A stretch of 64,000 nucleotides of DNA from the NCBI GenBank assembly GCA_026225095.1, contig JAMFSC010000037.1, positions 1-64,000 on the forward strand, given 5' to 3'. A program made the position numbers and the translations under genes. This stretch comes from a bacterium. GTDB lineage: Bacteria; Acidobacteriota; Terriglobia; Terriglobales; Acidobacteriaceae. Numbering within the stretch: position 1 is the stretch's first letter; every line of letters begins with the position of its first letter. Under the pieces are notes generated by a model. The model was not told the DNA's origin and did not search any database. It worked only from the letters and a program-made list of their open reading frames with translations. Below are positions 18,683 through 31,891 of the stretch, piece after piece.

Positions 18683-21600
18683 TTACGGAACGCGCAGGGG
18701 ATGAAAGCCATCCACGGGGAAGAGGCCGGTTGGGTAGCTCTCGGTCGGGTATTGCGGACGGAAGAGGTAACGGATAAAGGCCCCACCGGAGACGGTGTTG
18801 TAGTTGTTGGTGTTGTTGCCGGAGACGAAGCCGCCAACGAACCAGTGCTCGGCGATGCGGTAAGACGTCTCGGCGTTGATGCCGTAGTTTGCGCCGGTGT
18901 TGCTGTTGACGGGCAGGTAGCCGCAGGTTCGAGCGGTGATCTGGGATAGCGTGCAGCCGGAGAGGGCGCCGGTCTCGGTGGCAGGGTCGAGCGGGTAGTA
19001 GGGGGCGCTGTCTTCCTGGAAAGTCTGCAGACCGACGCTGCCCGAGATGAGGTAGTGCCAGTCCGTCTTGTAGTGACCCGTGAAGGTGACCGGGATGGCG
19101 GCCAGGAAGTAGACGTTCGGGCTGAAGTAGCCGCCGGAGCCATAGGTGAGCCCGCGCTCGTTGTGATCGAAGTGGGCGCCGTAGAACGAACCTCCGATAT
19201 TCAGGGTTCCATACTGGGGCCAGGACTTGACGCGGAAGTAGGCTCCCGCCCCGCCGTTGAAGGTCTTGTTGTCCAGGACGTGGTAACCGTTGACTGAGGC
19301 CCCGCTTCCGGAGAAGTAGAGACCAGACTTCTCGTTTCCGGCATCGAAGCGGATCCCTCCTCCGGTGGAGACCACGCCACCCCAGATATTGCCGGAGTAG
19401 ACGGGAGTCGCGGAGCCGGGATCGCGCAGACCGGCGTAGGAGAGCTGGGTCTCTTTGACCGAGTCGCGATCGGCCAGCAAGGTGAAGTGGCCGCCCACAG
19501 GCCGCCAGCGGAACCGCCCGGTAATATTGCGGACCAGGAACTCATACGGTGTATAGCCGACGGCGAGGCCCAAGTTGGTGGTCACGATCTGGCCTTCTCC
19601 GCCGACGCCGCTCGAGAACTGCTGCGCAGGCGCTACGAGCGCGTTGGCGGGAAACGTCCCGAGGATGGGAATCGTGCCGCTTGTGCCAGCGTAGGCAGCT
19701 ACGTCGATCACCCCCGAGTTCAGGAAGACCGGGCGCGCGACGATGCTCGCCCGGACGTTCTTGTCGAGTACTGCCGAGAGTTCGACGGGAGCTTCAAGGT
19801 CGGTCATCCGATCAATGCCAGCGACCCCGCTGCGGTAGCGGGCGAATCCGGTTCCCCCAACCCAGCCGCTATAGGAGGCTTCGAGGGCGGCGAGATCGCG
19901 CTCGGCCTGCTCGCGCTCGGTGAGGGGGCGAGTCGATTCCAGAGGTACCTGCGCGTCATAGCCCCCGCGTAGAGGCGGGAGGCTCTTGGCCATGAGTTGG
20001 GCGTCGGTCGGTGCGGTGAGCAGGGGGCTTACCTGGCCGGTAGCGGGAAACGGCTGAGCCGAGAGAGGCTGGGGGACCGCGGGATAGATCATCGCAGGAA
20101 GCTGCGGGGGCGGCGATGCGGCCTGCACGGGTGGAGCGGCGGGGGGGATGGACTGGCGCGGTTTCTTCGCGTTGGAGCGCCGCGTCGGCTGGGGGTACTG
20201 CTGGCTCTCGCTGTCCCCGGTCTGTTTTGGGCTCGACTCCGCCGGATGGGGACGGGCGGTGGGACGGGCGACCTGATCGGATTGGGGCCTGGCCGGGTTG
20301 TACTCGGCGTACTCGGTGGCGGGAGTGGCGTAGGTATCTTCCGCGGGCGGATTGCTCTGTCCCATCATGACCGGATTGGACTGATTGCGACGGATGGCGG
20401 AGGCACGCGCGGCGGCGAGTTCAGGACGATTCGACGTCGGCGCAGTTCGACCGTTGGGAATGTACCTTGCTGTCGGCGTAACGTCCGTGACCTCGGGGTG
20501 CGGCAAGTTGATGCGGGCGCTGTTCTCTCCGAGTTGGACAGGCACTGCCTGCTTGGTGGTCGGGACGTAGGGGACGTACGGGCCGTAGACGATGTCGGAT
20601 GGCGGATTCGCAGAAGGCTGAAGCTGATTCTGGGGTTCGGCCGTCAGGCGTTGGCCCTGATGCAACGGTTGAGTTCGTTCGGAAGAAAACAGGTGGGTCT
20701 GTGGCGAAGTCGATGTGGCTTCGATGGGACCCGGATTGTTGTAGACCCTTACCGAAGGAGCGGACTGGGAGATCGCGGAGTGACTGCGCGGCGGTAAGAC
20801 GGGAAGTACGAAGTCGTCGAGCGTGTCGGGTCGATGATTGGCAGCCTGGGGGACGTAATCCTTGAGCGTCTGGCCGTTGCTCGATGGCGCGCGGGCTGGC
20901 GAGGAACCCGGACTGCCAGTGTATGAGGGGAGGCCGGTGTTCGGTGCTCCGTTGAGTTGCACGGGGGCGGTCCCGTAGGAGTTGGCGTAGCTGGGAAGGT
21001 ACGCGCCGGTGGGCTCGACGGGAGCGACGACATCGACCGCGCCCGGGGCGAGGAGACGGGAGAGGTCCTGCGACTGGGTTGCACTGGGAAGGTGTATCTC
21101 GCTGGATGGGACGGGCCGGCTGAGTTCGTCGGCAAGCTCCGCGCCCGGGTCGGGCGGCGGCATCGCGGCGAGCGAAGCGCGGTAGTAGTCCGCGGCGCGC
21201 GAATTGTTACCGCGTGCCTGCTCGAACTTGGCCGCGAGGACGAGCATCTGGGCGTCGCGGGGATAGGCATCGAGGCCATAACGGAGCCAGGTTTCGGCGT
21301 CCCTGGTGTCGCCTGCGGCCAGGGCTGCGCCGACCGCAGCCTTGTAATCGGAGGCCGTGGTCTGGGTCATGTCCTGCGCTTTGAAGATGGCCACAGCCTG
21401 CTTTGGCATACCGGCACGAGCGTATCCGCCGGCGAGCGCCTTGATGACGCCTGGGTTATCCGGGAAGGAGCGGGCGGCGGCGTTCAGGATGGCGAGCGCG
21501 CGCCGGTTGTCACCGGTGGCGGCGACCTGGTTGGCACGGCGCACGGCCCAAGCAGCCCATTGCGTTTGGACAGTGCGGCGCTGTTCCTCCGTCAGGTCGG

Positions 21601-23875
21601 TGCGTCCGCCAAGGTTCATCAGCTGTCGGTAAAGGCCCGTGTCGTCGCCGCTGTTGAAGAGCAGCCACGCATCCTGGATATCTATATCTGCAGGCGGAGC
21701 CGAGTGGCGCAGATTGTAGTACTGCTGTACGCGGGCCAGGAAGACGGCTGCCTGACGGGGCTGCCCGAGGGAGTTGTAGACAGCGCCGACGGTCTGGAGA
21801 TACTCAGGGTCGTTCTCAAGCTGGGTACGCACAGGCGCATGGATCTGCTGGACCTCGGCCAAAGCCTCCTGGTCACGGCCGTTGGTGTGCAGGGCGGAGA
21901 GGAGACCCTTCCATGCATCGAGAAGGCCTGGATTCTGGTTGAGGATGCGCTGGTAGATGGGATACGCAAGCTGCGGGTTGTTGCGCTGGAGATAGATTCC
22001 CGCGAGCTGTAGCTGGATCGGCACCGAGACGCGCTGGCCAGAGGTGGACTGCTGGGCCGTCGCCTTTTCAAGGATATCCTGCGCGATATCGAGCTTGCCC
22101 TGCCCCTGATAGATCGCGGCGACGGTCGTCTCGAAGCCGGGGTCACGCATTGCCGTGGCATAGACGCCTGGCGGCATGGCTTCGAGGGTTTGAACTGCGT
22201 GCTGATCCTGATTCATGGCATGCTCAACTCGGACAAGACCCTGCCAGGCGCTGGTGTTCTCGAGGTCGGCGGCGAGAACCTGGCGATAGAGACCCCCGGC
22301 CTGATCAAGATGATTGGCCTGTTGGAGGAGGCTGGCGTACTGCAGCTGCGTCTCGGCGCGAAGGCCTCGCCCTCCGGTGGGGAATGGCAGGTCGAGAGCG
22401 GTCCGGAGAACGCCCTGGGCGTCGGCGTCTCGGCCGACTGCGGAGTATGCGGAGGCGAGCGTACGCAGGAATTCGGGATCGCGCATCAGCTCCGCACGGA
22501 CCGCCTTTGGGATGCGCTGATCGGTGAGGAGAGCTGCGGACGCATCCCCCGCTCCCAACTGGGCCATGATCAGACCGCGCCAGGCCGACGGCGCGCTTGG
22601 TTTCAGGCGAGTGAGGCGCTCGAAGACCTGCGCGGCGGGAGCGGACTCCTGCGACTTGAGCAGCGTGCCGCCCAGTCCCTCCAACGCTTCAGGGCTGTTG
22701 GGCCGCATGGTCAACGCAGCCTGATATTTCGTCTCGGCGGAAGCGAGATCGTTGTCGCTGAGCGCCGTCTGGCCTTCGCCCATCGTGAACCAGAAGCGTG
22801 AGGTAGCGAGGGCCGTGTTGATTCCAGGACCATTCTCTCCGAGCTGCCGGGCCTGCTCAAGAAAGCTGACGGCCCCGCCGAAGTTGGATTGCTGCATCCG
22901 AACATAACCCATGCCGGCGAGGGCCGGGCCGCTTCGGGGCTGACCAGCCAGGATGGCCTTGAACCGCATCTCCGCCTCCTGGAGGTGGTGAGCGTTCAGT
23001 GCGCGGTAGGCCGCCTGCTCTTCGAGAGTGCGAGCCCGGTTGGTCCGGATGGATTCGACCTCGTCCAGAGTGCGCGGGGCAGGTACGTGGGGCTGGTTCC
23101 TTAAAGCCTGTGCAAGCTGGGCGTCGGGATGCTTTGCAAGGTAGGCGCGGATGTCCGCGGCAGAGGTCGGGCTCTGCGCATCCCAGAGGAGCGATTGACG
23201 GAGGGCTTCCACGGCCGGCGCATCATTGGCGTAGCGTTCAAGGATCTTGCGGCCCTCGGCCCGCGTCTTGGGGTTATAGGTAAGGATGCGGCCAAGCGCG
23301 ATCTGATAGTGCGAATCCGATGGGTACTTTTCGGAGAGAGCCCGCAGCCCGGCGATCGCATGGGGCCTTCCATCCTCGGTGGCGGACTCGGTCTCATAGT
23401 ACGCCAGCGACCAGTCGCCGGGCGGGGGGTTGCCGCCGAAGACCTGACGATAGATGACCATCGCCTGGGCGTATTGTCCGGCCTGGGCTAGCTTGCCGGC
23501 CTGTTGGAGCTGCGCGTTTTGATTGGCCTGGGTCCCCATGGCCTGAACCTGGGCGATGGCTGGATCGTTGGGACTGATTGCCCGAAGGCGCTCGAGGTAG
23601 AGCGTGACCTTGGCGGTATCTCCGCTCAATTTTGCGGCCCGCGCAAGACCGCCCAGGGCCTCGGTGTTTTTGGGATCGACCAGAAGGACCTGCTGCCAGG
23701 TCTGACTCGCCATATCCGCGCGACCGCGAGCTTCGAGATTGTGTGCCTTCTCCAACAAGGTCTGGGTGGCGCTCTTGGTTGCCTGCGCAGACAGAGGAAG
23801 CGATGCGGGAAGATACGTCATCGCACCGATCAGTGCTGCGGGGGCCCAGTACCTCATGGAGAGCTTCTTCATCAT
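18683..23875 (-). CDS. bcsC: Cellulose synthase operon protein BcsC (TPR-linker-barrel)
   Basis: The outer-membrane exporter of cellulose: a periplasmic TPR scaffold leads the glucan to a 16-strand type beta-barrel. The 1730-residue product has a signal peptide (cleavage near LSAQ, residue 31), many TPR repeats to about 900, a Pro/Gln/Ser-rich low-complexity linker of nearly 400 residues (about 905-1290), and the BCSC C-terminal barrel (about 1330-1730). The terminal VPR is unusual for a barrel, which often ends in an aromatic residue. The linker makes it far longer than E. coli BcsC (1157 residues). It is the last gene of the leftward operon bcsQ-bcsAB-bcsZ-bcsC, 145 nt after bcsZ. Confidence 0.92.
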   Translation of the reverse strand: MMKKLSMRYWAPAALIGAMTYLPASLPLSAQATKSATQTLLEKAHNLEARGRADMASQTWQQVLLVDPKNTEALGGLARAAKLSGDTAKVTLYLERLRAISPNDPAIAQVQAMGTQANQNAQLQQAGKLAQAGQYAQAMVIYRQVFGGNPPPGDWSLAYYETESATEDGRPHAIAGLRALSEKYPSDSHYQIALGRILTYNPKTRAEGRKILERYANDAPAVEALRQSLLWDAQSPTSAADIRAYLAKHPDAQLAQALRNQPHVPAPRTLDEVESIRTNRARTLEEQAAYRALNAHHLQEAEMRFKAILAGQPRSGPALAGMGYVRMQQSNFGGAVSFLEQARQLGENGPGINTALATSRFWFTMGEGQTALSDNDLASAETKYQAALTMRPNSPEALEGLGGTLLKSQESAPAAQVFERLTRLKPSAPSAWRGLIMAQLGAGDASAALLTDQRIPKAVRAELMRDPEFLRTLASAYSAVGRDADAQGVLRTALDLPFPTGGRGLRAETQLQYASLLQQANHLDQAGGLYRQVLAADLENTSAWQGLVRVEHAMNQDQHAVQTLEAMPPGVYATAMRDPGFETTVAAIYQGQGKLDIAQDILEKATAQQSTSGQRVSVPIQLQLAGIYLQRNNPQLAYPIYQRILNQNPGLLDAWKGLLSALHTNGRDQEALAEVQQIHAPVRTQLENDPEYLQTVGAVYNSLGQPRQAAVFLARVQQYYNLRHSAPPADIDIQDAWLLFNSGDDTGLYRQLMNLGGRTDLTEEQRRTVQTQWAAWAVRRANQVAATGDNRRALAILNAAARSFPDNPGVIKALAGGYARAGMPKQAVAIFKAQDMTQTTASDYKAAVGAALAAGDTRDAETWLRYGLDAYPRDAQMLVLAAKFEQARGNNSRAADYYRASLAAMPPPDPGAELADELSRPVPSSEIHLPSATQSQDLSRLLAPGAVDVVAPVEPTGAYLPSYANSYGTAPVQLNGAPNTGLPSYTGSPGSSPARAPSSNGQTLKDYVPQAANHRPDTLDDFVLPVLPPRSHSAISQSAPSVRVYNNPGPIEATSTSPQTHLFSSERTQPLHQGQRLTAEPQNQLQPSANPPSDIVYGPYVPYVPTTKQAVPVQLGENSARINLPHPEVTDVTPTARYIPNGRTAPTSNRPELAAARASAIRRNQSNPVMMGQSNPPAEDTYATPATEYAEYNPARPQSDQVARPTARPHPAESSPKQTGDSESQQYPQPTRRSNAKKPRQSIPPAAPPVQAASPPPQLPAMIYPAVPQPLSAQPFPATGQVSPLLTAPTDAQLMAKSLPPLRGGYDAQVPLESTRPLTEREQAERDLAALEASYSGWVGGTGFARYRSGVAGIDRMTDLEAPVELSAVLDKNVRASIVARPVFLNSGVIDVAAYAGTSGTIPILGTFPANALVAPAQQFSSGVGGEGQIVTTNLGLAVGYTPYEFLVRNITGRFRWRPVGGHFTLLADRDSVKETQLSYAGLRDPGSATPVYSGNIWGGVVSTGGGIRFDAGNEKSGLYFSGSGASVNGYHVLDNKTFNGGAGAYFRVKSWPQYGTLNIGGSFYGAHFDHNERGLTYGSGGYFSPNVYFLAAIPVTFTGHYKTDWHYLISGSVGLQTFQEDSAPYYPLDPATETGALSGCTLSQITARTCGYLPVNSNTGANYGINAETSYRIAEHWFVGGFVSGNNTNNYNTVSGGAFIRYLFRPQYPTESYPTGLFPVDGFHPLRVP

Positions 23876-24020: not shown

Positions 24021-25217
24021 CTATTTCCAGGGGAGGTTCAGGCGTCCGTCGCGGTCGAAGCGAAAGCGCTGGTCACTCCAGCCAGTGGAGAAGAGCGCCA
24101 GATTCTGATCGTAGTAGCTGGCGTCCTTGCCGTAGAGGCCACTTGCCGGATCCCGGAGCGCGATGAGCCGGTTGGCCTGGGTCTTCTCCTCGGTGGTTAG
24201 GTTAACGCCGTGAAGATAGGGCACCGCGGCAGCAGAGAACCCGACTGGAGCATCTGCCCCGAGGACCACACCCGTGGCGCTGACCTGGAGCGGCGGAGTG
24301 ACGTTCTTCTGGAGATATGCGGCCATCCCGGCGGTGTCCTTGAGAAGCTTCCGCCGCGACGGGGTTGCGGGGTCAGAGAGGCCGAGCCAGAGATACACGC
24401 GAATAGCGTCGTAGCTGCCCACCGGGGGCACGTCGACCTTCCCCGCGGCAAGCTGCGCAGGTGACGGAGACGCATGGATGCCGTCGCCGGCGGAGATCCA
24501 GTCCATGGCGAAGCCGGCGCTTGAGGATTGGGAGAGCATCGTGTGGAGCGATTCCACCAGTTGTACCCATGGCTCCTGCGGCATCGTCCTGGCGAGGCGG
24601 GTCAGGATCGGCAGGGGAAGGTAGCTGGGGTTGAGTATCCAGGTCCTGGGGTTGGGATGAAAGCCCCGCGGTCCCGGCAGAAGCGTCGCACCAAGGCCGG
24701 GGATGACGACGATCTCTTCCTGCGCGATGCGGGATGCCATTAGAGTGCCAAGCTTCTCGTATCGAGGATCGTGCCAGAGGCGCCCAGCCTCAAGCAGCGT
24801 GTAAGCGATCCAGAGATCGGCGTCCGCTGCGGGGTTTGGATCGAGTGTCTTCCATGTCCCGTCAGGGCTCTTGCCCCAGTTCCATGCGGGCAGGTGCAGG
24901 GTCAGATCACCGATGGCGAGATTGGCCTCGGTCCAACCCAGGATCCTGGCAAAGCGCGGCTTGTCGTTCGCGACCAGAGCGAAGAATAACGCGTAGGACT
25001 GGCCCTCACTGGTGGTGCGCTCCTGAGCGTCATGGTCAATGACGCGGCCCTGCTGGTCGATGAAGCGCTTGCTATATTGCTCCCACTGAGGCCATGGCTG
25101 CTGCGCCCTGCAGCCGGGCTCGGACCAGACCACGCAGGTGAGAAGTACGGTCAGTGCTCCACGCGACAGCCTCCTGGGTATCATCGATCTGGGCTCTCCT
25201 GATGTGGTGGGATCCAT
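24021..25217 (-). CDS. bcsZ: Periplasmic endo-1,4-beta-glucanase, GH8 (BcsZ)
   Basis: Family 8 glycoside hydrolase that trims or edits nascent cellulose in the periplasm and is needed for normal export. The 398-residue product has a signal peptide (ALTVLLTCVVWSEPGCRAQ), the N-terminal catalytic-acid segment RTTSEGQSYALFFALV with Glu71, the NPAADADLWIAYTLLEA segment with the conserved substrate-binding Asp pair, and NPSYLPLPIL. The ATG at 25217 has AGAGG ten nt upstream; an ATG at 25184 with GGAG upstream is an alternative. It begins 13 nt after the bcsAB stop, fitting cotranscription. Confidence 0.93.
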   Translation of the reverse strand: MDPTTSGEPRSMIPRRLSRGALTVLLTCVVWSEPGCRAQQPWPQWEQYSKRFIDQQGRVIDHDAQERTTSEGQSYALFFALVANDKPRFARILGWTEANLAIGDLTLHLPAWNWGKSPDGTWKTLDPNPAADADLWIAYTLLEAGRLWHDPRYEKLGTLMASRIAQEEIVVIPGLGATLLPGPRGFHPNPRTWILNPSYLPLPILTRLARTMPQEPWVQLVESLHTMLSQSSSAGFAMDWISAGDGIHASPSPAQLAAGKVDVPPVGSYDAIRVYLWLGLSDPATPSRRKLLKDTAGMAAYLQKNVTPPLQVSATGVVLGADAPVGFSAAAVPYLHGVNLTTEEKTQANRLIALRDPASGLYGKDASYYDQNLALFSTGWSDQRFRFDRDGRLNLPWK

Positions 25218-25230
25218 AAGGCGGAAACCT

Positions 25231-28200
25231 CTAGGCGTTGCCCAGCAGACGTGTACGGGCGTGTCGACGCAGCATTGCGCGGAGGAGGGCAGCCATGAGA
25301 AAACAAACGGTGAGCGTGGCGACGACGAACAGCCAGGGGTACTCGGAGAAGATCATATTGATACGGGTCCACCAGCCGATCGAACCTACACGGTAGGAGT
25401 CGCCCCCGATGCGGTAGGAGACGAAACGGTTCCCCTGCAGAACGCTGACGGACTGCGAGATGTCGGACGATTGGGAGGTTTTGAGGAAGACATCGAGAAA
25501 ATTGGGCAGAACATTCTTATCGCGGAGCGCTATGACGACGACAGAGCGGGCGGATCCATGGGGCCACTCGATACCTTCGATCAGCGCGTCGGGCAGCCCT
25601 CCCTGGGTCTCCATTTGTCCGGATTCCACGCGGTCGGAGCTGCGGACGCGCCACCATGCGTGTTGTAGTGGCGCGAAGAATCCCTGGGTGTCCTGGATGT
25701 GGAGACCTCCCTCATCGATGGCCACCGGGAGAGAGTTGAAGAGCTTCCTCAGTGCGGGCTGATCCTCGACGCCGCCTATTACGAGGTAGTCCTTGCGGCT
25801 GTCTTCCTTCATGCCATCAGCGTCGGTGATCGACACGTTCAGCACAGGGTAACCGGTCTGCGCGCCGAAGTGGCCCATCAGCGTGAGGAACATCTCCAGC
25901 TCCTCCGGCGAAGGCTGATCGGGCAAAACAACGGCGGTTTCAGTCAGGTCGGCGAGTCGGGTGAAGGGATACCCTGCATTGGCGAAGAGCTCCAGATCGG
26001 GCAGAACGGCCAAGTGCGGGATCCCCGAGATGTCAAGATAGCTGTCCTTGAGAATGGCGCCTTGTAGATTGAGTGGGGCAGTATCCTGGCACCTTCCATT
26101 TCTTGTCAGCTGAAAGAGGAACCTCATCATCAAGGAATTGCTGAAGGGGCGAATCCCGGCAGTAGGAATGGGGATGATTGTTTCGAGCCTTGCGGAGGCC
26201 TTGTCCGTGTGCGGCACCGGAGTTGAACTGACGAAGGCCGAGTTCATGTAGACCTGGAGCGAGCTCTCATTTGCTAAAGGAATCCCGTTATAGCGGTAGC
26301 CCATGTGGAAACCGAGATTGGAGAGAGGCCGGATGTAGAGATCGGGCGGAAGACGCATGTAGACACCCATGGGGCCGGACCCATCGCCCTGCAGTTGGCC
26401 GGTCTGGGCAATATCACCCACGTAGGTAACCCTGTCGGTCGAGAGCCAACGCGGTGCGTCGTCCGGCTGGCGTGGATTGGGAGGACGGAGGTGCCGGATT
26501 GAGATGGTGTCGCCCTCGAGCATCGCACGCTGGAGCGTGAGAGCCTGGGCAGCGAGCACCGCATCATCGGCGTTGGCCCCGGTCAAAATAAGGAGCTTGC
26601 CACTCGGATCGTTGGGATTGTTGCGCATGGCCAGCGTCGGTCCATCGGCGCTGCCGGCGGGGAGATTCACCGAGGCGGGAAGATCGGCTGCGCTCTCGCT
26701 GATCAGAATCGCGTCGCCCATCGGGATGGAGCCGATCGACACGGGGAAATGGACAGGACGGTAGTCCGCGAGGATGCCGAACCAGGAGGTGACGATTGCG
26801 GCTGCGCGTAGTGCCTTGGTCGATGGCGGCGCCAGAAACACAATGCGAACGACCGGATGTAGATTCACCCCAGCATCGTAGAACGGCAGGGGTAGAAGCT
26901 TCAGGTCGTTCGAAAGGGAAAGAAGCGAACCCGAGAGATCGATGATGGAACTGGAGTCGACCTGCGCCCAGAGGGTGGTGTGCGTGGGGTCGTCGCACTG
27001 CATGGTGTAGTGTCCGATGAACTCTAAAGTGAGCTCATTGTTTTGGACGATCATGTCGGACGGCAGAGGGATGTTGGCCTCCAGCAATGCGCTGCGCTCA
27101 TCGCGTGCAGGGTCTAACCTGTCGCCGGCTATTGCCCTTTCGTTCGGCGAAAGGGCGGGGCCTGGGGCCCTGGGGGCCGCAATGACGGGAAGCGTGGCCA
27201 GGAGCGTGCCGTTGAGTGAGACCTTGAGATGACTCAGTGCAGGGATGAGTCCGGGGGAGAAATGATAGCGAAGCTTCAGCGTGGCGTTCTTGACAATCTG
27301 TGTCTGCGCCACGTGAAAGTAGGTGGAATGATAGGAATCCACCCCACGGAGGACGATAGGATCAGGCCCACCCAGATCCGCGAGTGTAAACGCATTCTCG
27401 AACTGGCCCGATGCCACAACTCGGGCGGGGGCACGGGCAACCGCACTGGGTGTGTGAGATGGTCGCACCGGCTGCGCCTGCAGGCTCGCGACGGCGGATA
27501 GAAAAGCGAAGAAGAGCAGGGGCTCGGCGATTGTGGCTAGCCGCCCTCCGACCTTCTTCTTTTCATCTCCGGACAGTAGACCACGTGCGGTCTGATTCAG
27601 GCCTTTGATCGAAAGCTTCAGGATGCGGAGCATGCTGGAAAGCGGGCGATCCACCTCTCGAGCCTCACCCCAGCCCAGCCAGGTGTCGGCCCGCGAATAG
27701 AGCACCATGGTGAGTGCCTCTTCCTCCTGCATGGTGAGCGGATCGAACTGGGCGCGCAGCACCCCGTCGCCCAGTGAGACGATGGTGGCGGGAAGGGTGG
27801 CGTCACCATCGAGTACCGGGAAGGTGAGGTTCACCAATTCACCCGATGGAATGATGCGGTCCTCTTCGATGCGGATCATGACACCTCCGCTCGAAAGGTC
27901 GAGGCTTACCCCATGGACCATGCTTCCATCGGCGAATACGACGTCGGTCGGAACGGACATCGCGACGCGCACCGTCTGACGGCGCTGCTGGCTCTCCCAG
28001 GCTACGGCAGTGGCGACGCCCAGGATAGCCATGTTAAAGAGCGTCCAGAGGATGTTCATCACGATGGTCCCAGGATGGTTGCCATCGTAAAGCCCGTGCA
28101 GAAAAGGAAGTTGGATAGGAACGGCGCGCGGGATAGCAAGGAGAAGACCAAGCAGATCGAACCCAAGCATCCAGAGGAACGGCTGCGCAATTCGCTGGTC

Positions 28201-29727
28201 GAAGAAGCTGCGATTCACGACGCCTCCCTTCGCGGTCACGTTGAAGCTGCCGAACCTGGGGTTAATCAGCGCCAGCATGGTCGGCACGAAGATGTACGGT
28301 GCAAGGACGGTCTCGTAGATCTCATTCCAGAACGAGTGGCGATGCTGGCCCTGGATGCGGGAGTTGGTGATGTTCGACATGACCAGGTGCGGGAACGCGT
28401 AGGCGAGGATCGCCGCCCAGTATCCGGGGACGTTGGTGTGTCCGAGGACGAGATAGATGAGCGGTGCGGTGAGGAAGATCAGACGCGGGAGCGCATACAG
28501 GAAATGCGACATCGCGTTGAAGTAACAGAGTCGCTGGGCGGGAGTGAGGCCCTTGGCAAAGAGCGGGTTGTCCGTGCGCATGATCTGGATCATGCCGCGG
28601 GCCCATCGAATGCGCTGCTTCACGTGGCCACTGAGACGTTCCGTGGCCAGGCCTGCTGCCTGCGGGATGTTGATGTACGCCGTGTTCCAGCCGTTCATCT
28701 GCATGCGCAACGAGGTGTGGGCATCCTCGGTAACGGTCTCGACCGCGATACCTCCAATCTGGTCGAGCGCCGTGCGGCGAAGCACGGCACAGGAGCCGCA
28801 GAAGAAGGTGGCATTCCAGAAGTCATTCCCATCCTGCACGATGCCGTAAAAAAGTTCGCCCTCATTGGGGATGGTGCGGAACTGGTTCAGGTTGCGTTCG
28901 AAGGGATCGGGGGAATAGAAGTGATGCGGCGTCTGCAGCATCGCGAGCTTCTGATCCCGCAGAAACCAGCCCATGGTGACCTGCAGGAAGCTGCGCGTGG
29001 GAACGTGGTCGCAGTCGAAGATGGCGACGTAAGGAGAGCTCAGGCGGCCAAGCGCGGAGTTGATGTTCCCGGCCTTCGCGTGCTTGCTGTCGGCGCGCGT
29101 CATGTAGCCGATGCCTGCTTCTTCAGCGAAGCGTCGGAACTCCTCGCGTCTTCCATCATCAAGGATGTAGACGTTCAATTTGTCCGCGGGCCAGTCGATG
29201 TTCATCGCCGCCAGCGCGGTGAAGCGGACGACCGACAGCGGCTCGTTAAAGGTGGGTATGAGGAGATCAACCGAGGGCCAGTCTTCGGGGTCTTCGGGTA
29301 GCGGGACCGGGGTCCGTCGGAGCGGCCAGAGGGTCTGTAGATAACCGAGATAGAGAATGATGAACGCATAGGTCTCGGCTCCGACCAGAAGCCAGATGAA
29401 GAAGAAGTCCAATGCCGTCCAATGGGTCGAGGGATCGAGGAAGAACTTGAGCGAATACGAGATGCGCCAATACCCATAGCGGAAGGTCGAGTACATCGAT
29501 ACGAGAATCAGGGTCAGAGTAATGAGGTAGGAATTGGAACTGCGGTCCATCCACATGGACAGCAGCACCGTCAGCAGGCCAAGCACAGCCTGCTGCGGCC
29601 AGCTGAGGTCGAGAATCCCGGTGAAGCAAAGAAAGACAACTCCTCCGGCAAGGATCAGGAAACGCAAAGCGCGAAGAAGAAAGCCATCGCCGGATTCGAA
29701 CTCTCTCCACAGTGGAGATCGCGTCAT
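25231..29727 (-). CDS. bcsAB: Fused cellulose synthase BcsA-BcsB
   Basis: Processive GT2 cellulose synthase fused to its periplasmic partner, 1498 residues. The BcsA half has N-terminal membrane segments and the catalytic core with ILDDG (188-192), DCD (238-240), FFCGS (308-312), TED (333-335) and QRIRW (371-375). Further membrane helices and a PilZ domain follow; the c-di-GMP motif is intact as RRQTVR (582-587) and DLSSGG (610-615). The BcsB half starts near 755 with carbohydrate-binding beta domains and ends with a membrane anchor near 1465-1490. Fusion of the two is known from Komagataeibacter AcsAB. The start overlaps the bcsQ stop by 4 nt (ATGA). Control by c-di-GMP follows from the PilZ motifs. 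Confidence 0.95.
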   Translation of the reverse strand: MTRSPLWREFESGDGFLLRALRFLILAGGVVFLCFTGILDLSWPQQAVLGLLTVLLSMWMDRSSNSYLITLTLILVSMYSTFRYGYWRISYSLKFFLDPSTHWTALDFFFIWLLVGAETYAFIILYLGYLQTLWPLRRTPVPLPEDPEDWPSVDLLIPTFNEPLSVVRFTALAAMNIDWPADKLNVYILDDGRREEFRRFAEEAGIGYMTRADSKHAKAGNINSALGRLSSPYVAIFDCDHVPTRSFLQVTMGWFLRDQKLAMLQTPHHFYSPDPFERNLNQFRTIPNEGELFYGIVQDGNDFWNATFFCGSCAVLRRTALDQIGGIAVETVTEDAHTSLRMQMNGWNTAYINIPQAAGLATERLSGHVKQRIRWARGMIQIMRTDNPLFAKGLTPAQRLCYFNAMSHFLYALPRLIFLTAPLIYLVLGHTNVPGYWAAILAYAFPHLVMSNITNSRIQGQHRHSFWNEIYETVLAPYIFVPTMLALINPRFGSFNVTAKGGVVNRSFFDQRIAQPFLWMLGFDLLGLLLAIPRAVPIQLPFLHGLYDGNHPGTIVMNILWTLFNMAILGVATAVAWESQQRRQTVRVAMSVPTDVVFADGSMVHGVSLDLSSGGVMIRIEEDRIIPSGELVNLTFPVLDGDATLPATIVSLGDGVLRAQFDPLTMQEEEALTMVLYSRADTWLGWGEAREVDRPLSSMLRILKLSIKGLNQTARGLLSGDEKKKVGGRLATIAEPLLFFAFLSAVASLQAQPVRPSHTPSAVARAPARVVASGQFENAFTLADLGGPDPIVLRGVDSYHSTYFHVAQTQIVKNATLKLRYHFSPGLIPALSHLKVSLNGTLLATLPVIAAPRAPGPALSPNERAIAGDRLDPARDERSALLEANIPLPSDMIVQNNELTLEFIGHYTMQCDDPTHTTLWAQVDSSSIIDLSGSLLSLSNDLKLLPLPFYDAGVNLHPVVRIVFLAPPSTKALRAAAIVTSWFGILADYRPVHFPVSIGSIPMGDAILISESAADLPASVNLPAGSADGPTLAMRNNPNDPSGKLLILTGANADDAVLAAQALTLQRAMLEGDTISIRHLRPPNPRQPDDAPRWLSTDRVTYVGDIAQTGQLQGDGSGPMGVYMRLPPDLYIRPLSNLGFHMGYRYNGIPLANESSLQVYMNSAFVSSTPVPHTDKASARLETIIPIPTAGIRPFSNSLMMRFLFQLTRNGRCQDTAPLNLQGAILKDSYLDISGIPHLAVLPDLELFANAGYPFTRLADLTETAVVLPDQPSPEELEMFLTLMGHFGAQTGYPVLNVSITDADGMKEDSRKDYLVIGGVEDQPALRKLFNSLPVAIDEGGLHIQDTQGFFAPLQHAWWRVRSSDRVESGQMETQGGLPDALIEGIEWPHGSARSVVVIALRDKNVLPNFLDVFLKTSQSSDISQSVSVLQGNRFVSYRIGGDSYRVGSIGWWTRINMIFSEYPWLFVVATLTVCFLMAALLRAMLRRHARTRLLGNA

Positions 29728-31586
29728 CGTTCACTCCAACGCACGTTGCGGAAGCCGGAAGACGCTGGAGCGGAGAGCTTGTGCAGCCAGTTGGCCACGG
29801 TGATGTAATCATCGGCGACCGGAGCGTCGGGAGCGTAATCGACGACGGTCATCCCTTCGGCGAGAGCCTCACTGACGGCCGGGGCGCGCCGGACGACAAA
29901 GGGCAGGAGGCGAGCGCCGAGCTGCCGCCGCAGAACCTCGCGGACATCCAGGTGGAGCGGGAGCGAGGCGTCGAATCCATTCAGGAGGTAGTATGGCTCA
30001 ACAGCGCGACCCTCGACATCCATGATGCCGTGAAAGGTCTTCTCTACGCCCTGGAGGCTGATCACGGAGTTCATATCGGGAGCCACAGGGATGAGCACGG
30101 TGGGGTTCATTCCCGCGACCCGGCGGATAATCCAACCCGCACTTCCGGAGAGATCGAGCAGGATGCGGTTGGAGCCACGAGTCTTCTGGATGAAGTCGTC
30201 AAAGAACTGATCCTGTTGGACGGGATCGAGCGCGAAGTGCTCGAGATCATAGCTGATCAGCGAGATGGGAGACTCGTTTTGTCCGCTGGGCGGGGAGAAC
30301 GTGCGTACGACGCCGGGGCGCAACTCCGTGGCGCCAAAGTAGAATGGAAGAAGCCCATGCGATGTAGTATCTGCGAGGATGACGCGTTCCCCTTGAGAGG
30401 ACAACGCCCGGCCCAGCGTGGCGACCAGGCTGGTCTTGCCCACGCCTCCTGCGAGCGAGAAGACGGCGAGCAACGGGATACCGCTCTCTGGCTGCCGCGC
30501 CGACTGGGCCTCCACAAAATCCGTGTTCGGCTGATCGAAGACCCCCTTGAGCGCAAACCATCGGGAAGCCACCCGCTCGCGGGAGTGCTGGAGGGTGTCG
30601 GCAACGATCGATGATACCGGCGCGATCGGAGTCCATGTCCGCCCGGCTGGCTGAACCGACGTCGTCGCGTGTGGAGCATAGAGCCATGCCGGACCTGTAG
30701 GAGCATCCGAGGACGACCTGATCGCCTGTGGAGGCGGGCCAGAAACCTGCGGAGGTCCGGCAGGCTCATGTTGCATCGTGGTGATATACGAGATGGGAGT
30801 CGGTGGAGTGGCGGGACGGTTCGCAGGGCGATAACCGGCTATCTCCTCCTGGCGATCCGCCTGGGTGAGGAAGCGAACCTCATCCGGCGCGCGTGGAATC
30901 TCTTCGCCCGGACGCTGCGGATTGGGACCGGGCGCGATCGACGGGTCATTGCGATCGCGGGTCTGCCGGTAACGACCCAGCTGTAGGTGCTCCATCCCGG
31001 CGCTTGAGGCGTCTGCATCCGAATCCCCTCCGCTGGCGGGCATGTACGGATCGGTGACCTGCCCCGGGACCATCGACATCGGCTGCGGCCCTGCAAGCTG
31101 GCGCCGGCGCTGCTCCGTCTCGTTATAGCGCGCAGCTTGTCGCTGGGCGGACGCATGGGCCTCCGCCATCTCACGTTCCTCGCGTCGCGCCGCAACCTCG
31201 GCAGTGGCTGCCGCCTCAGCGCGACGGGCAGCTTCGACGCGCTCTGCCGCGGCCCTTCGTGCAGATTCCTCGGCCGCACGAAGAGCTTCTTCATGGGAGA
31301 TTTTGTCCTGTTCCGCGAGGTGCTGGTTCGCGGCCCTCGCCGCCTCGCGGGCCGCCGATTCTGCCAACGCGGCTGCTGCCTCGGCTTCAGCCTGAGCCTT
31401 CAGTTCCAACTCGCGGATCTTCTCTGCGGCTTGATGTCGAAGCTTGGCGCGGTACTCCCGCCGAGACGCGGAAAAATCGCGATACTTGGCCCCATGCAAA
31501 TTCGCCCACGAATAAAGAATAGCCACATCTTCCGGAGTTTCAGATACGGCCGGATCTTCGAGATGCTCGTTGGCCTTTGAATCCAT
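29724..31586 (-). CDS. bcsQ: BcsQ-like ATPase with BcsR-like and coiled-coil N-terminus
   Basis: A 620-residue MinD/ParA-like ATPase of the cellulose operon. The C-terminal domain (about 365-620) has the deviant Walker A GGVGKT at 380-385, ADTTSHG, and ILLDLSGSAGW as the switch strand. Unlike the roughly 250-residue E. coli BcsQ it has a long N-terminal part: residues about 20-47 (DVAILYSWANLHGAKYRDFS) resemble the small partner BcsR, then an Ala/Glu/Arg-rich coiled coil (about 48-175), then a Pro-rich linker. BcsQ with BcsR organises the synthase at the inner membrane. The ATG at 31586 has AGGAG seven nt upstream; an in-frame extension upstream looks spurious. First gene of the operon. Confidence 0.88.
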   Translation of the reverse strand: MDSKANEHLEDPAVSETPEDVAILYSWANLHGAKYRDFSASRREYRAKLRHQAAEKIRELELKAQAEAEAAAALAESAAREAARAANQHLAEQDKISHEEALRAAEESARRAAAERVEAARRAEAAATAEVAARREEREMAEAHASAQRQAARYNETEQRRRQLAGPQPMSMVPGQVTDPYMPASGGDSDADASSAGMEHLQLGRYRQTRDRNDPSIAPGPNPQRPGEEIPRAPDEVRFLTQADRQEEIAGYRPANRPATPPTPISYITTMQHEPAGPPQVSGPPPQAIRSSSDAPTGPAWLYAPHATTSVQPAGRTWTPIAPVSSIVADTLQHSRERVASRWFALKGVFDQPNTDFVEAQSARQPESGIPLLAVFSLAGGVGKTSLVATLGRALSSQGERVILADTTSHGLLPFYFGATELRPGVVRTFSPPSGQNESPISLISYDLEHFALDPVQQDQFFDDFIQKTRGSNRILLDLSGSAGWIIRRVAGMNPTVLIPVAPDMNSVISLQGVEKTFHGIMDVEGRAVEPYYLLNGFDASLPLHLDVREVLRRQLGARLLPFVVRRAPAVSEALAEGMTVVDYAPDAPVADDYITVANWLHKLSAPASSGFRNVRWSER

Positions 31587-31891
31587 TGCGCTGCTCCTGG
31601 GGGTACGCGAGGCCGACCCGGACGCGATCACGGGCATCCGTAGAATTCTGCACTTTTTTATATGCAATACGATGAGGCTACGTGGCTGGTCCTCCCGACG
31701 TCAATCAATTGTGGTGACACTTAAGTGTCACTTTCAATGGACGTCCGGGGAGTGCCAAAACGGAAAGAAATCGGACGGAAGCCGGTTGACGTGACCATCC
31801 CCGGTCCAATCCTCGATGTCATCCCGCTCACCGTCCGGCAGCCCCTGGACAAGAAAGGCACAGGGTATTTGTGCTACCTTACCTTTGGTGC
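31587..31891. other. Regulatory gap between bcs operon and tRNA-Lys
   Basis: A 305-bp gene-free stretch that must hold the promoter of the leftward cellulose operon and that of the rightward tRNA gene. The only strong signal is the 18-bp palindrome at 31714-31731. I found no confident -35/-10 pair for either direction. Confidence 0.55.
31714..31731. promoter_or_regulatory. 18-bp perfect palindrome, candidate operator of bcs operon
   Basis: GTGACACTTAAGTGTCAC is self-complementary over all 18 bases. It sits 128 nt upstream of the bcsQ start and 161 nt upstream of tRNA-Lys, in non-coding DNA. Perfect palindromes of this size typically bind a dimeric transcription factor; no regulator gene is adjacent to name the candidate. 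Confidence 0.5.

Follow-up and report, generated by a model that had tools for sequence, protein, structure and literature searches.

The bcs operon described here raises the question of what stands ahead of BcsQ in its first gene. The window, a 64,000-nucleotide stretch of the genome of a bacterium of the family Acidobacteriaceae (positions 1 to 64,000 of the forward strand of contig JAMFSC010000037.1, GenBank assembly GCA_026225095.1), carries the genes on its minus strand in the order bcsQ-bcsAB-bcsZ-bcsC. Compared with solved BcsQ (6yar, 6ybu), the bcsQ product has the C-terminal domain and the position directly ahead of BcsA in common, but differs by a 370-residue N-terminal extension. 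In E. coli, secretion depends on a complex of BcsR and BcsQ, two proteins that stabilise each other (PMC11470070), and their roles are therefore hard to separate. A preliminary description of the locus proposed that a BcsR-like segment, a coiled coil, a Pro-rich linker and BcsQ are joined in one chain, a natural fusion that would fix the stoichiometry and add an oligomerising stalk. We confirmed the 620-residue frame and found that residues 20-39 of its product are quite probably an activator plug of the BcsR/BcsP type, covalently tethered to BcsQ. The observations behind this reading are a similarity to BcsR and BcsP at the profile level, a fusion present across the family, and retention or loss of the plug that tracks bcsAB.

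Residues 20-39 (DVAILYSWANLHGAKYRDFS) consist of a hydrophobic run followed by YRDFS and align without gaps with the BcsR/BcsP hairpin that plugs BcsA. The profile-profile comparison that the preliminary description had called for, with 37 relatives against nine reference sequences (seven BcsR or BcsR-like, two BcsP), gave an E value of 4.2e-5 and a probability of 70%, again with no gap across the motif. The likeness lies near the N-terminus, in the register first described and on one chain with BcsQ. When the columns were shuffled, none of 300 shuffles reached the observed score of 21.3 (null mean 8.1, standard deviation 2.1, maximum 16.1); the input was 94 relatives, all of those among 105 aligned rows that have the loose motif, trimmed to the first 37 columns. 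Among Pfam families, PF10945 matched more of the 37 relatives, and with a lower E value, than any other (4 members, best E 2.9e-4), the runner-up being TetR_C_24 (2 members, best E 0.042). The NCBIfam models BcsR_only and BcsP_of_Ic (NF040718) matched seven relatives (best E 0.027) and one relative (E 2.4e-4), respectively. All of these matches were under the curated cut-offs; for PF10945, the best relative scored 20.8 bits and the gathering cut-off is 25.2. At the profile level, the similarity of residues 20-39 to BcsR exceeds chance, and we infer common descent of the plug with BcsR and BcsP.

The conserved positions coincide as well. D20, L24 and Y35 were the sole invariant residues in a 50-residue segment of the 37 relatives, and they correspond to D21, L25 and Y36 in BcsR of E. 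coli (YhjR, PF10945; BcsR2Q2), whose plug half matches without gaps at D21, L25, L31 and Y36. Residues kept or similar relative to BcsR are D20, V21 (I22), L24, L30, Y35, D37 and S39. In the cryo-electron microscopy structure of the E. coli complex, BcsR D21-S30 forms a helix that makes a U-turn, L25, F29, L31 and I34 plug a hydrophobic pocket of BcsA, I22 pairs with Y36 at the base of the hairpin, and D21 lies between R367 and R792 of BcsA (PMC11470070). D21, L25 and Y36 are among the residues altered in multiple mutants of the BcsR N-terminal domain in which cellulose was severely or completely lost while BcsRQ formation was unaffected (PMC11470070).

The other half of BcsR has no counterpart in these proteins. 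E. coli BcsR is a free protein of 62 residues whose V-shaped C-terminal helix pair docks on BcsQ (PMC11470070), whereas the segment described here is fused. That half contains RWPLL, of which R, P, L and L are invariant in all nine BcsR/BcsP references; a counterpart ([WF]P followed by two hydrophobic residues) was present in none of 106 rows of relatives. The BcsA-facing half of BcsR therefore appears to survive in the fusion and the BcsQ-docking half does not, a loss that would be expected of a plug joined covalently to BcsQ. BcsP is a closer match than BcsR for this N-terminus. In beta-proteobacteria, BcsP (NF040718, its N-terminus matching PF10945) has a BcsR-like plug followed by a Pro-rich region, as here, and we read this order ahead of BcsQ in Caballeronia (L123) and Cupriavidus (L124). 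However, BcsP is encoded by a separate gene and has RWPLL, while the present protein is one frame with BcsQ and lacks it. A plain fusion of BcsR to BcsQ was rejected, since BcsP is the closer match and one half of BcsR is missing; of the earlier proposal, the fusion of a BcsR-like segment to BcsQ stood.

It is conceivable, though somewhat unlikely, that the N-terminus is a full BcsP equivalent that also acts as a cytoskeletal scaffold aligning synthases, like BcsP-BcsD or BcsH-BcsD, which would be compatible with a plug at its head. BcsP is Pro-rich, has a BcsR-like N-terminus, interacts with BcsQ and partners with BcsD, and the Pro-rich proteins BcsP and BcsH are scaffolds (PMC11470070). The shared order of plug and Pro-rich region fits this idea, and so does the long helix predicted by AlphaFold2 (AF2; residues 35-92 and 98-164, from 3 sequences with a mean predicted local distance difference test (pLDDT) of 51.7). 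Residues 48-165 are 34% Ala, 19% Glu and 15% Arg, and residues 166-325, at 18% Pro, have pLDDT values mostly of 30-40. However, the coiled coil of the preliminary description found no support as a heptad: in residues 40-165, hydrophobic periodicity at 3.5 residues was not significant against shuffles (p 0.16 and 0.50). Of 20 uncorrected periodicity tests, the one for Ala with a period of 3.6 residues gave the lowest p value (0.014), consistent with a one-faced helix. Plug and P-loop were 96 to 741 residues apart (92 rows), and in short relatives, where this distance is about 100 residues, the plug is followed by BcsQ with no long Ala/Glu/Arg stretch. BcsD was found in none of 120 genomes of the order, but control genomes were silent too. 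A stalk as a defining part was rejected, as the short relatives are without it; what lies between plug and BcsQ is better described as a putative tether of variable length, with an oligomeric stalk possible.

We then asked what the plug follows across relatives. We surveyed 249 genomes of the order with thresholds of E<=1e-10 for BcsQ, E<=1e-120 for BcsAB and E<=0.01 for the plug profile, and found a BcsQ relative in 104, BcsAB in 101 and a plug-profile match in 107. Three of the 107 plug matches were weak (E 0.003-0.008; G045, G125 and G199), came from genomes without BcsQ or BcsAB, and were taken as noise. Duplicates (L004-L006 and L092, of L070-L072 and L033) were dropped, second and third BcsQ copies per genome were counted among the matches listed, and L034, which lies at a contig end, was counted as unlinked and left out of the argument; L166 (G245) is cut likewise. 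The plug profile matched in 99 of the 101 BcsAB genomes, and the remaining two have the gene at the end of a contig. D, L and Y of the plug were intact in all 94 bcsAB-linked BcsQs (95 of 95 including L165).

This distribution bears on a further alternative, namely that the segment binds the fused BcsQ itself, within the chain or across the dimer, and regulates its nucleoside triphosphatase (NTPase) rather than BcsA. The segment does share a chain with BcsQ, and the BcsR N-terminal domain is able to thread onto BcsQ in crystals as a beta-hairpin (PMC11470070). However, in the eight genomes with BcsQ but no BcsAB, eight of the nine BcsQ copies examined had lost at least one of D, L and Y while retaining the BcsQ domain; the cleanest cases were L032, L085, L051, L052, L111 and L055, from five genomes. 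In G085, a second BcsQ is without plug while the bcsAB-linked copy has it. Conversely, G043, G128 and G170 have bcsAB and bcsZ (two also bcsC within the stretch) and no BcsQ match, and a stand-alone frame directly upstream of bcsAB keeps D, L and Y intact. A plug that is kept with bcsAB, mostly lost without bcsAB and kept without BcsQ tends to follow BcsA rather than BcsQ, and we consider binding to BcsQ improbable. The tethered activator plug remains the better account of residues 20-39.

The stand-alone plug frames encode 126, 103 and 155 residues (5, 5 and 12% Pro), counted from a chosen ATG. In a BcsA tree, the three genomes shared a clade with seven fused short forms (11 rows, 100/99), and other fused forms branched outside that clade (join to the nearest fused rows 90/93). 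Since the plug-only BcsAs are nested among fused forms, these genes most simply derive from the fused gene by loss of BcsQ, and a separate plug gene therefore does not refute the fusion. The preliminary description had suggested a search for separate bcsR genes: among the 249 genomes none passed the PF10945 cut-off, and a separate plug gene was found in these three, seemingly derived from the fusion. In the window's own genome, the Pfam BcsR model gave just two matches, on other contigs (E 1.7 and 3.0), and a separate bcsR there was rejected. The deepest rows of the BcsA tree are fused, so the plug-BcsQ fusion is probably old in this acidobacterial family. In a sample of 297 genomes from the phylum, all listed BcsQ-like matches that scored above 130 bits fell in the window's own family; the next matches, at 95 bits or less, resemble general ParA/MinD proteins, as judged by score and length only. 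We regard the natural joining of a BcsR/BcsP-type plug and BcsQ in this acidobacterial family as real. We found no report of a BcsR/BcsP-BcsQ fusion in the literature searched, which mostly did not cover subscription papers, so its absence is unproven.

Several points weigh against the assignment as a plug. By itself, the window protein matched no BcsR or BcsP model in Pfam or NCBIfam, and PF10945 exceeded its cut-off in none of the 249 genomes of the order. At E<=0.05, that search gave nine matches, the top one at the N-terminus of BcsQ in G090 (E 0.0048); none of the remaining eight is in BcsQ, and the second is close (E 0.0095). On its own, the order-wide search proves nothing and lends weak support. 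Two residues of the E. coli plug, F29 and I34, are replaced by A28 and A33; F29 is invariant in all nine BcsR/BcsP references, and W27, which adjoins A28, is mostly conserved. The AF2 model places a helix at 18-30, a turn and a helix from residue 35 in the plug region with low confidence, and as a whole it is weak. That the segment is a chance or convergent amphipathic motif of 20 residues, unrelated by descent to BcsR, would fit its shortness, the missing single-sequence match and the eight of nine order-wide matches elsewhere, but the shuffle test, the profile-profile E value, the matches in several relatives and the coincidence of the invariant residues with D21, L25 and Y36, together with the location in the same operon, make this highly improbable.

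The link to bcsAB has exceptions too. In two of the eight plug-less copies, L065 and L066, the P-loop is altered too, and these may represent old paralogues instead of fusions that were orphaned. All three residues are intact in L121, although its genome, which is 90% complete, yielded no BcsAB; a tetratricopeptide repeat (TPR) protein, possibly BcsC, is next downstream. A frameshifted BcsQ remnant in G091 (L164) keeps the plug motif in a genome in which no BcsAB was found. There are few independent events: parsimony required four switches between plug states on a quick tree that carried long-branch warnings, and the comparison of independent pairs gave two to three concordant and no discordant cases (p 0.25-0.5, an underpowered test). 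The direction of the tracking is consistent, while significance by independent events was not reached. In G205, an intact plug-BcsQ is unlinked to the only bcsAB found in the genome, a divergent one. The BcsA arginines likewise do not decide the matter. The window BcsA retains the equivalents of R367 and R792, but so does a Methylobacterium BcsA that has no annotated BcsQ as neighbour, and five short-form relatives and the three plug-only ones have lost the R792 equivalent, so that this test is not diagnostic.

By analogy with E. coli, the fused BcsQ would sit beside the PilZ domain of BcsA, and a short helix (D20-L30), a U-turn and Y35 would form a hairpin entering a pocket at the interface of the glycosyltransferase and PilZ domains. 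The hairpin would hold the synthase active, with the acidic residue D20 turned towards the equivalents of R367 and R792, and the helix and Pro-rich stretch would serve as the variable-length tether. In E. coli, the C-terminal helix pair of BcsR docks on BcsQ (PMC11470070). Because the plug is on BcsQ's own chain, we propose that this docking half would be dispensable and that the ratio of plug to BcsQ would be 1:1. Contact with BcsA, activation and this stoichiometry are putative.

A broader reading, which we offer tentatively, is that BcsA is activated by a portable module, the plug, which follows BcsA and switches carriers, as a free peptide (BcsR), the head of a Pro-rich scaffold (BcsP, perhaps BcsO), a BcsQ fusion, and a free protein again after BcsQ loss (G043, G128 and G170). 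If so, BcsQ would be a partner for delivery or positioning that can be dispensed with, and these acidobacteria would provide a natural double dissociation that allows the functions of plug and NTPase to be separated. The relatives appear to have fused plug and BcsQ and then lost one or the other, a pattern from which one would predict that, of what this partner provides, BcsA depends most on the 20-residue plug. The fusion offers a 1:1 tethered version for structural work, and a reach of the plug beyond Pseudomonadota is suggested.

Table 1 Features of the bcs operon in the window.
Feature	Coordinates	Strand	Evidence
Fused plug-BcsQ gene, 620 residues	29724..31586	-	open reading frame and relatives
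AGGAG ribosome-binding site	31594..31598	-	sequence
Putative BcsR/BcsP-like plug, residues 20-39	31470..31529	-	profile comparison
Predicted Ala/Glu/Arg-rich long helix, residues 48-165 (coiled coil of the preliminary description)	31092..31445	-	composition, AF2 helices
Pro-rich linker, predicted disordered, residues 166-325	30612..31091	-	18% Pro; pLDDT mostly 30-40
Conserved amphipathic segment, residues 326-352 (includes DTLQHSRERVASRWFALKGVF)	30531..30611	-	loose pattern, 85/106 rows
BcsQ SIMIBI-type NTPase domain, residues 371-605	29772..30476	-	PF06564 2.3e-20; PDB BcsQ chains 5e-9
bcsAB fusion (BcsA-PilZ and BcsB), putative plug partner	25231..29727	-	profile matches
bcsZ (glycoside hydrolase family 8 endoglucanase)	24021..25217	-	profile matches
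bcsC (TPR and outer-membrane barrel)	18683..23875	-	profile match

The AGGAG lies 7 nt upstream of the plug-BcsQ ATG, residues 1-19 of the protein are acidic, and the stop codon overlaps the start of bcsAB, a fusion of 1498 residues, by 4 bp. PF06564 matched residues 372-600 with 73.6 bits against a cut-off of 21.3, which places the domain in BcsQ, and solved BcsQ chains matched this C-terminal domain. TIGR03371 matched with an E value of 9.2e-42 and 143.2 bits, below its equivalog cut-off of 157.85, which was exceeded in 2 of the 297 genomes of the phylum. MinD/ParA-type proteins have the P-loop KGGxGKT. The P-loop here (30429-30458, SLAGGVGKTS, in this exact form in 70 of 106 rows) is without the first lysine and reads AGGVGKT, versus RGGVGTT in the solved BcsQ chains. 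Because several BcsQs without plug (L032, L051, L052, L085 and L111) retain the amphipathic segment DTLQHSRERVASRWFALKGVF, its role may lie with BcsQ itself, perhaps at a surface that contacts a membrane or the other subunit of a dimer. BcsQ copies L032, L051, L052, L055, L065, L066, L085 and L111 persist in genomes in which no bcsAB was found.

Plug-like sequences were also noticed elsewhere. The N-terminus of enterobacterial BcsO (DLQRFKDKTRNQKYEFKDLS; L077 6599-7186, L084 6603-7142) fits the plug spacing by eye, with D, a hydrophobic residue, F at +4, F at +15, D, L and S; it gave no PF10945 match, and BcsO may carry the same plug. On a Sphingobium plasmid (L082, 4902-5240), a separate 112-residue protein with a plug-like start (DAANLLARLGRKDFRYREFT) and no Pfam or NCBIfam match is followed by a separate BcsQ and then a bcsAB fusion, and is perhaps an unfused counterpart. 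The P0001 search of plasmids gave no match. A contig from a viral collection (L130, 5001-5114) has the plug motif close to its end, probably reflecting a bacterial contig end or misbinning.

The order bcsQ-bcsAB-bcsZ-bcsC is the one described for the acidobacterial bcs locus in PMC9693552; the BcsQ N-terminus is not described in the accessible part of that report. Elsewhere, the window's own genome (L169, G000:C189) carries a second, divergent bcsAB with a BcsA identity of 60%, and such 'outcast' bcs paralogues have been reported (PMC9693552).

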